From assembly GCA_007135605.1 (NCBI GenBank), contig SLIN01000043.1:1-44086 (forward strand): DNA of 44,086 bases, given 5' to 3'. The notes below the pieces were generated by a model, which saw nothing but the letters and a program-made list of their open reading frames with translations, did not search any database and was not told where the DNA came from. This DNA is from Spirochaetales bacterium (GTDB lineage Bacteria; Spirochaetota; Spirochaetia; DSM-27196; SKKC01). Below are positions 21,734 to 24,561 of the stretch, piece by piece; position 1 is the stretch's first letter; every line of letters begins with the position of its first letter. The translations under genes and the position numbers were made by a program.

Positions 21734-22246
21734 ATGCTCGACCGAATTGAACCCGGCAGTTACTTCAACGCATTCAACGCTTCCGGTGAGCGAAAGGCAA
21801 AGGAATCCGATAAAGAACGAACCGACCGCGCGAAGTCGAACGATCGCTCGACAGCCGCTGCTGCGGACAGCGGAACGACACGATCCACGGGCACTTCGTT
21901 CGCCTCGGCAGCGTCGGCCGTCGAGCTTCAGGAAGCACACTCGCTGCTCGACGATATTCACACGCTTGGTGCCGAGCTGAAGCGCAACCCGACGGTGGCG
22001 AACCTGAAAGAGTACCGCCGGCTCGTTCAGCGTTTCATGAATCAGGTCGTCGCGGGTGCGTATGGGCTCGAGCATCGCGAAAGCGGTGCGGCGATTCTCA
22101 AGCGCAAACGCTTTTCGCTCGTATCGCTTGTCAATCAGAAGCTCGATCGCCTCGCCGCCGGCCTCGTTCAGACGCAGGAATCACAACTCGACCTACTCGA
22201 GCAGATCGAAGAGATATACGGCTTGCTCGTCGATCTCATGCAGTAG
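21734..22246 (+). CDS. YaaR/DUF327-family protein
   Basis: LLDDIHTLGAELKRNPTVANLKEYRRLVQRFMNQVV...RFSLVSLVNQKLDRLAAGLVQTQ. Confidence 0.85.
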   Translation: MLDRIEPGSYFNAFNASGERKAKESDKERTDRAKSNDRSTAAAADSGTTRSTGTSFASAASAVELQEAHSLLDDIHTLGAELKRNPTVANLKEYRRLVQRFMNQVVAGAYGLEHRESGAAILKRKRFSLVSLVNQKLDRLAAGLVQTQESQLDLLEQIEEIYGLLVDLMQ

Positions 22247-22335
22247 ACCCGATGCAGCAGAGAACGGCGTTCCGCCGGCGCTTCGACGTTCGGAACACGG
22301 CGCTCCCTGGCGTGGGCAAAACTATCGTCCCCTGA

Positions 22336-22464
22336 GAGTTTGTCGGACTTCACTTCGGAATTGAATATCGGACGTATACACCGACATCGGAATGCATACG
22401 TCTCGGCGACAATATGCGCTAAGCCCTTCCGATATTCAATTCTGCCCATATGTCCGACAAACTC
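22336..22464. repeat. Nested inverted-repeat element (MITE-like or structured RNA)
   Basis: 13-bp ends GAGTTTGTCGGAC (22336-22348)/GTCCGACAAACTC (22452-22464); inner 14-bp arms AATTGAATATCGGA (22359-22372)/TCCGATATTCAATT (22428-22441); core CGTATACA/TGCATACG around CCGACATCGG. Confidence 0.9.
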
Positions 22465-24561
22465 CTAAGCGGATGTGAGATCGTCCTGGTATTGCAGCCG
22501 GTAGAGGTTGTAGTAGAGGCCCCGCTCGGCTATCAGCTCCTCGTGACGCCCTGCCTCAACCAGGTGTCCGTGGCTGAGCACGAGGATTCGGTCGGCGTGG
22601 CGGATCGTCGATAACCGGTGTGCGATCACCAAGCTCGTGCGTCCTTCCATCACCTTGAGCATTGCCTTCTGGATAAGCTGCTCGGTTTCGGTGTCGATAT
22701 TCGCGGTGGCCTCGTCCATGATAATCACGCGCGGATCGTGTGCGAGCACGCGAGCGAAACTGAGCAGTTGCCGCTGTCCGGTCGAGATGTTCGTTGCTCC
22801 TTCATTGAGCTGGGTTCCGTATCCGTCCGGTAGCTGATCGATGAAGCTCTGTGCCTGCACGATACGGCACGCTTCGCGAACCTGCTCGTCGCTGAGGTCG
22901 GCACCGAGGCGTATGTTCTCCTCGATCGTCTGACTGAACAGAAAAACATCCTGCTGAATCGGCTGCACGGTCGACCGCAAATCGGACACTGGGACATCTC
23001 GTATGTCGACGCCGTCGAGGCGTATCGAGCCCTCCTGAATGTCCCACATACGGGTCAACAGGTTTGCTATGGTAGTCTTACCCGCCCCCGTGTAGCCGAC
23101 GACGGCAACCGTTTCTCCCGGCTCGATTGTGAAGGTCATATCCCGTATTACCGGTGTGTCCGCCTTATAGGCGAAGTGCACGTGGTCGAACTCAACTCGT
23201 CCCCGTACCGGCTTCGGTAGCTCGCGCGTTCCGGTGTCCGGAATCTTCTCCTCGTGGTCGAGGATCTGAAAGACCCGCTCGCCACCGGCCATCGCCGACT
23301 GGAGTATCGTGAACTGATCGGAGATGCTCATGACCGGCTGATAGAAAAGCCGAATGTAGTTGATGTACGCGATTACCACGCCGAGGCTAACCCATCCCTG
23401 AACGAAGAAGGTTGCGCCGAAGTAGATGATCACCGCCACCGAAACGTTGGAAAGAAGATCGACTATCGGGCGAAAGGTCGCCATGACGTACATCTCGGTC
23501 AGATTCGCCTTCATGAGTTGCTCGTTGTCGGACTCGAAGCGATCCGCTGTCTGCTCTTCGCGGGTAAACATCTGAACGACACCCATTCCGGAAAGCCGCT
23601 CGCTGAGATAGGTGTTCACGCGACTCACCCAGACACGCACCTGGCGAAACGCCTCACGCGCGCGGCGCCGGAAAAAGACAAACGCGATTATGACCGGCGG
23701 CAGGCTGAGCGCCGTGACGCTTCCGAGATGCAGGCTGAGCAGGAAGAGGGCGATGATCACTCCGACCATTCGGGTCAGATCGCGGATCAGGTTGCTGAGC
23801 ACGTTCTGAAAGAGCTCGTTTATGGTTTCCACATCGTTGGTAATGCGGGTGACCATTCGGCCGACCGGATTGCGGCTCAGGTAATCGAGGTTCTGAGTGG
23901 TAATGTGCCGGAAGAGGGCAAGACGCATGTCCTTCATAATGCCCTGGCCGGTAAGCGCGAGGAGATATACCTGCACGAAGCTCAGGGAGAGCACTACGAT
24001 AAGCACGACGAGAAAGATGCTCGTCATGGTAATGAGCCCGTCGAGATCCTCCGATCGGACCGTCGCGCGGTCGCCGGCCGAAAGCTCACCGAGATCCCCG
24101 AGTCGAATCACCGCGTGGGAGCCATCCGCCGTGAAAAGATCCGGGTGCTGCATAACGACCGCCGCCGTCTCATCATCGACGATACGAAAGAGATAGAACC
24201 GCTCCTCGTCGATGATTCCCTCTTCCATGAGCCGGTCTCGCTGCAGCTCGGTGAGATCGTTGAGTCGCTGTTCGTGCACGTAAACGTACTCCCCGATCGC
24301 CGTCTCGTCGCCGGTGAGCTCTACCGAGGCAAGGTCGTCATCCTCGACAGCTTCCTGCGGGATCCGAACCCACGCGCGTACGAGGAAGTCGTCGACGGTT
24401 CGTTGAATCACGATCGGAATGGAGAGCTCTCCGGCGGTTGCGAGCACGAGCGCCCCGACGGCGATCAGGAAACGCCGGCGGTGCGGCGCAAGAAAACGCA
24501 GTAACCGGCGCATGAGCTCCGGGTTGTAACCGGAAATGACCTTTTCATCATCCATCGTCAT
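22465..24561 (-). CDS. ABC exporter half-transporter (TMD+NBD) with extracytoplasmic insertion; canonical Walker B Glu
   Basis: GYTGAGKTT Walker A; ISTGQRQLL signature; VIIMDEATANID Walker B; extra ~110 aa between the first two TMs. Confidence 0.95.
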   Translation of the reverse strand: MTMDDEKVISGYNPELMRRLLRFLAPHRRRFLIAVGALVLATAGELSIPIVIQRTVDDFLVRAWVRIPQEAVEDDDLASVELTGDETAIGEYVYVHEQRLNDLTELQRDRLMEEGIIDEERFYLFRIVDDETAAVVMQHPDLFTADGSHAVIRLGDLGELSAGDRATVRSEDLDGLITMTSIFLVVLIVVLSLSFVQVYLLALTGQGIMKDMRLALFRHITTQNLDYLSRNPVGRMVTRITNDVETINELFQNVLSNLIRDLTRMVGVIIALFLLSLHLGSVTALSLPPVIIAFVFFRRRAREAFRQVRVWVSRVNTYLSERLSGMGVVQMFTREEQTADRFESDNEQLMKANLTEMYVMATFRPIVDLLSNVSVAVIIYFGATFFVQGWVSLGVVIAYINYIRLFYQPVMSISDQFTILQSAMAGGERVFQILDHEEKIPDTGTRELPKPVRGRVEFDHVHFAYKADTPVIRDMTFTIEPGETVAVVGYTGAGKTTIANLLTRMWDIQEGSIRLDGVDIRDVPVSDLRSTVQPIQQDVFLFSQTIEENIRLGADLSDEQVREACRIVQAQSFIDQLPDGYGTQLNEGATNISTGQRQLLSFARVLAHDPRVIIMDEATANIDTETEQLIQKAMLKVMEGRTSLVIAHRLSTIRHADRILVLSHGHLVEAGRHEELIAERGLYYNLYRLQYQDDLTSA

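Follow-up and report, generated by a model that had tools for sequence, protein, structure and literature searches.

A perfect nested inverted repeat of 129 bp occupies positions 22336-22464 of the window, the whole stretch of 44,086 nucleotides that was analysed. It belongs to a dispersed repeat family with a 4-bp target duplication, empty orthologous sites in related genomes, and ends and targets like those of IS1182-family elements. We consider it very probable, judging from the sequences, that this is an IS1182-type MITE, which would be cross-mobilised in trans by an IS1182-family transposase into a CTAG-like target. The preliminary description had offered a non-autonomous miniature mobile element as one of two readings, and the dispersed copies, the empty sites, the 4-bp duplication and the ends that match full insertion sequences (ISs) bear this out.

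Architecture of the element and its insertion site

The element begins with the left terminal inverted repeat GAGTTTGTCGGAC (22336-22348, plus strand), a perfect 13-bp complement of the right terminal repeat (22452-22464, minus strand). A left bubble of 9 non-complementary nucleotides, TTCACTTCG (22349-22357, plus strand), leads to the left inner arm GAATTGAATATCGG (22358-22371, plus strand), which is perfectly complementary over 14 bp to the right inner arm (22429-22442, minus strand). The arms enclose a 57-nt core with a small hairpin (22372-22428), and the right bubble TGCCCATAT, also of 9 nt, completes the structure (22443-22451, plus strand). An alignment of 52 copies covers both bubbles and shows the left one to be conserved in subfamilies A and B. 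The lengths given previously for the perfect outer and inner arms are correct; the spacers, reported as 10 nt, are in fact 9 nt each, the core is 57 nt and not ~55 nt, and the unit, taken as AGTTTG...CAAACT (22337-22463), is GAGTTTG...CAAACTC and spans 22336-22464.

Four inverted repeats with perfect 13-bp arms within 150 bp occur in the window; each of five equally long Markov sequences has none. The predicted folding energy of the element is -57.9 kcal/mol, compared to -29.1 ± 4.0 kcal/mol for shuffled sequences (z -7.2; 0 of 200 shuffles). Its perfect 13-bp ends, together with a length too short for a transposase gene, are as in other MITEs.

The element is flanked by convergent genes, with a DUF327 gene to the left (21734-22246, plus strand; Pfam PF03885) and an ABC exporter gene to the right (22465-24561, minus strand; Pfam ABC_membrane and ABC_tran). 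The stop codon of the ABC gene, TAG, is the complement of 22465-22467 and touches the right arm of the element, as the preliminary description had stated. It was most likely the insertion target: it lies within CTAA (22465-22468), which forms the right half of the target duplication, and the left copy, CTGA (22332-22335), is one change away from CTAA. In the sister genome G001, the orthologous intergenic DNA does not contain the element. The neighbouring genes are syntenic (83.5% identity for DUF327; 95.6% for the ABC protein over 457 aa) and the empty site is a single CTAAG, within which the ABC stop is already present. The element therefore most likely inserted onto a pre-existing stop codon, an event that would have left the exporter protein unaltered.

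Distribution and subfamilies

The preliminary description held that a single copy, lacking occupied or empty sites elsewhere and lacking covariation, would argue against a repeat family, and proposed a comparison with the element's own and related spirochaete genomes. A 141-bp query finds the element in about 40 places in its own genome, at 71-100% identity and mostly across ~130 bp. Further copies are present in two congeneric genomes and in G036, which belongs to another family of the same order; the similarity search detected none in the other 57 relatives. These genome-wide counts combine the genome similarity search with 231 kb of retrieved loci. The same distribution results from a covariance model trained on 52 copies, with which the window copy scores 159 bits: of 46 genomes from the order, 4 carry the family, namely three congeneric spirochaete MAGs and G036, which has two copies. 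Match counts of this model include both strands, so they exceed copy numbers, and its E-values are rough. In a pattern scan of named genomes, which may omit the host's own records, all matches came from the CSSed and B1Sed series of spirochaete MAGs; from the isolate names, we take these to originate from soda-lake sediments. A pattern search of viral contigs found no copy of the element.

Within subfamilies A and B, nearly all 129-bp copies have in common the outer arm GAG[C/T]TTGTCGGAC, the inner arm AATTGAATAT[C/T]GG, the left bubble given above and TGCCCAYAT as the right bubble. The cores diverge strongly between A and B; the window copy belongs to A. A third subfamily (L091:85-212, L110:816-942 and L122:1474-1602) keeps the outer and inner arms and differs in the bubbles and core. 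Short forms of 23-65 bp also exist, and those of 23-44 bp are reduced to the outer arms and some of the bubble sequence (L106:1512-1554, L113:539-582, L116:1432-1474, L126:438-480 and L094:1143-1165). At one orthologous pair (L054 and L107), G002 carries a 128-bp element and the host MAG G000 a 44-bp form without the inner hairpin and core. We read the short forms as palindrome deletions. Two further pairs, L017/L178 and L031/L181, were discarded as short forms in the sister genome after alignment showed other host sequence.

The two copies in G036 are located at L033:633-761 and L036:1410-1538. The L033 site is present in the congener G032 as a single CTAG beside an orthologous neighbour gene of 73% identity, and the contig carrying L033 therefore belongs to the G036 lineage. 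The L033 copy was probably acquired by transfer between families, an argument that covers this copy only.

Insertion generates a 4-bp target duplication

The flanks of 63 copies were compared with shuffled flanks. Direct matching between left and right flanks exceeds shuffles only at a length of 4 (134 matching letters versus 118.4 ± 5.9, p 0.006), and inverted matching is not above shuffles. The consensus of the duplication is CTAG/YTAR, although it has decayed in most copies. Position -4 on the left is associated with +1 on the right (p 0.0004), and -1 on the left with +4 on the right (p 0.014); this position-specific association disfavours a TA duplication of IS630 type.

For each of 20 insertions, the left and right flanks were fused into a query for searching the relatives. 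Several unoccupied sites are continuous across the junction and contain one 4-bp target each (L064, L019, L005, L013, L020 and L048). The L064 copy is flanked by CTAG...CTAG and its empty site has a single CTAG; the equivalent sequences are CTGT...CTAT and a single CTAT for L019, and CTAA...CTAA and CTAC for L005. For L033, the junction-spanning site in G032 lies outside the host's family. The search for empty sites proposed in the preliminary description thus yielded junction-spanning orthologous sites, including the window's own in G001. Two pairs in which one genome lacks the element (L021/L096 and L041/L067) were not accepted as clean empty sites because of divergence in the intergenic DNA; L032 was set aside because both relatives seem to hold remnants.

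The 6-bp duplication originally read at the window copy (CCTGAG/CCTAAG) has to be shortened to 4 bp, CTGA/CTAA, in agreement with the flank statistics and the empty sites. The adjoining outer base at the empty sites of L064 and L019 mismatches the terminal base of the element, which is inconsistent with a duplication of 6 bp.

The ends and targets resemble those of IS1182 elements

The left terminal repeat of the element is nearly identical to the ends of IS1182-family elements. Among the DDE transposases of the relatives, two lie between nearly identical inverted ends. G004:C122 (L206:4-1672) has the ends GAGCCTGTCGGAC and TAGCCTGTCGGAT, and its protein scores above the cut-off of the IS1182 equivalog model. 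G012:C24 (L210:180-1789) has the ends AAGTCTGTCGGAC and GAGCCTGTCGGAG and TTAA/TTAA flanks; its reading frame is broken in two, and each piece matches the same model below the cut-off. An IS1182 element of Methylobacter (NZ_CP091426) has the ends GAGTCTGTCGGAC and CTAG/CTAG flanks, and the same flanks surround ISAzo2 and IS1182 elements of Pseudomonas and Komagataeibacter, whose ends are CAGCCTGTCGG. All five annotated plasmid IS1182 elements that were inspected are enclosed by CTAG/CTAG. The end of our element matches that of the Methylobacter element at 12 of 13 positions, and its GAGC form matches the G004 end GAGCCTGTCGGAC equally well (12 of 13).

Since IS1182 elements carry nearly the same ends and CTAG or TTAA targets, an IS1182-type transposase is the likely mover of the family. 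The sequence shared between the element and the IS1182 elements amounts to ~13 bp, and the proposed assignment rests on these short ends plus the target. In the host MAG G000, a profile search found no match to DDE_Tnp_1, DDE_5, DUF772, DDE_Tnp_1_2 or Y1_Tnp. Among the transposase families searched for, none with matching ends was detected in G000 or its two congeners, and an IS1182-type IS in G001 (G001:C177) was rejected as a partner, since the 13-bp repeat matches neither of its ends. G000 is 89% complete and split into 373 contigs, and G001 and G002 are likewise incomplete MAGs. As no autonomous partner was found in the incomplete G000, we class the element as a MITE with IS1182-type ends and do not regard its descent from any one IS as proven. 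Viral contigs contained no relative of the G004 transposase.

A separate locus in G036 (L199:1488-2024, G036:C108) contains five copies of GTAT[C/T]GGTCGGAC, 126 bp apart, beside a broken transposase. This array is probably a tandem repeat.

In the mechanism that we propose, another element would supply an IS1182-family DDE transposase in trans, which would recognise both GAG[C/T]TTGTCGGAC ends and insert the MITE at a CTAG-like (YTAR) target, duplicating its 4 bp. Insertions that survive would be those in intergenic DNA or exactly on the stop codons of genes. The inner palindrome may matter for transposition or stability: a second transposase contact and protection of the palindrome are possibilities for the conserved bubbles and inner arms.

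Stop codons at the element edge

A gene stop codon is found at the edge of 19 of the 64 full copies, based on gene calls made with a simple longest-ORF method. CTAG is strongly depleted in 231 kb of G000 (window 1-44086 plus the loci), where it occurs 16 times versus 156 expected from trinucleotides, with only two occurrences within coding sequence. Of 105 non-coding YTAR sites away from elements, 20 lie at gene stops, which predicts 12 of 64 copies compared to the observed 19 (p 0.027). Special targeting of stop codons was therefore rejected, as this background explains most of the abutment. It is a trait of the family that arises mostly from the target sequence and the loss of harmful insertions, because YTAR contains TAA or TAG and CTAG is nearly absent from genes. 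At L041:1511-1638 (G000:C158), the element itself provides the stop, and the G001 orthologue extends a few residues further.

The family illustrates clearly how insertions are steered to stop codons by a 4-bp target that the genome avoids within genes. A palindrome abutting a stop codon is easily mistaken for a terminator; here, the target preference explains the pattern.

Alternative explanations

It was proposed in the preliminary description that the element could be a long structured RNA ending two convergent transcripts. A bidirectional terminator or 3'-end stabiliser of the DUF327 and ABC transcripts, kept for that role, would be in line with the very stable predicted fold and the convergent genes, and similarity between species is higher in the element than in its flanks at two of the three shared sites compared. 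The stems also show compensatory changes between subfamilies, from T-A to C-G at column pair 4/127 of the outer stem and from C-G to T-A at 34/97 of the inner stem, and covariation in the core hairpin is above shuffles (0.203 versus 0.119 ± 0.013). However, the core signal is modest and comes mainly from one pair, and the stem covariation does not prove an RNA role, because palindromic transposon ends produce the same signal. The element has no Rfam match and no T-tract; the only terminator-like site, at 22187-22210, lies outside it. In G001, both genes are intact at the site without the element. The convergent context fits such an RNA and some pair covariation is present, but terminator features and an Rfam match were not found, and we regard this role as quite unlikely. 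Slightly different is the idea of a gene-end accessory, in which purging of the target from coding sequence would direct the element to stop codons, and the inner palindrome and bubbles would form a bidirectional RNA 3' end. Selection would preserve such an element, and it would have been transferred among families of presumed soda-lake spirochaetes; we think this scenario unlikely.

Mobilisation by a transposase of the IS5, IS701 or IS630 type instead of IS1182 has some precedent, as MITEPsy1, thought to derive from ISPsy2 (assigned to IS5 with a question mark), duplicates CTAG or YTAA (PMC3189936). At perfect CTAG sites, duplication of TA would fit equally well if the element had one additional G/C at its ends, but the flank associations described above are as expected for 4 bp, not for TA by itself. 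IS1182 members from different phyla have matching ends. PF13546, expected for IS701, was not found in G000, G001, G002 or G036, nor DDE_Tnp_1 in G000, G001 or G002, and we consider such an origin very unlikely. The short, dispersed, extragenic palindrome is also reminiscent of REP/BIME sequences spread by a Y1 tyrosine transposase (RAYT), and the left junction often reads TAGGAG, recalling the GTAG foot of REPs. Here the base preceding TAG is mostly C or T and not G, a 4-bp direct duplication is present, and Y1_Tnp was not found in G000, G001 and G002, the three genomes of the genus; we consider this origin extremely improbable. An IS1182-type MITE accounts best for the ends, the targets and the empty sites.

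Comparison with known systems

The element represents a new, high-copy MITE family of a kind that is already known. It adds to the few described IS1182-type MITEs a high-copy family found so far only in spirochaete MAGs, and, with its junction-spanning empty sites and a hairpin deletion in situ, it offers a useful natural setting in which to study MITE insertion and decay.

The closest precedents are MITEPye1, for the IS1182-type MITE, and MITEPsy1, for the CTAG/YTAA target. Paracoccus yeei carries MITEPye1, an IS1182-type MITE of 159 bp with 4-bp repeats and a stem-loop fold (PMC11578231). Compared by description, both elements lack an ORF, have IS1182-like inverted ends and 4-bp direct repeats, are intergenic and form a long stem-loop. 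MITEPye1 is longer and present in 1-3 copies per chromosome of an alphaproteobacterium, whereas the 129-bp element described here has ~40 copies and a nested inner palindrome. MITEPsy1 of Pseudomonas syringae, which was trapped in the act of transposition, targets CTAG or YTAA and duplicates 4 nt (PMC3189936). Like our element, it is about 100 bp long and has no transposase of its own, but its ends GGAAGGTCTGAAAAAGCC resemble ISPsy2 and not IS1182, and the family here is known from sequence alone.

Full IS1182 elements, including ISAzo2, the Methylobacter element and others inspected, share the [G/C]AG[C/T]CTGTCGG ends and CTAG/CTAG flanks, and 4-bp repeats are reported for the IS1182 member ISPse1 (PMC3281130). 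In contrast to the MITE, these ISs carry a transposase gene and measure ~1.45-1.65 kb, and its inner palindrome was not found at their ends. Assigned to the IS1182 family and thus to the same broad transposase family, IS1272 replaces inverted-repeat targets without duplication (PMC5678879), a target replacement that our empty sites do not show. REP/BIME sequences (PMC3733652) are similarly dispersed extragenic palindromes, but the family described here differs from them in its 4-bp duplication, its DDE-type ends and a genus in which no Y1 transposase was found.
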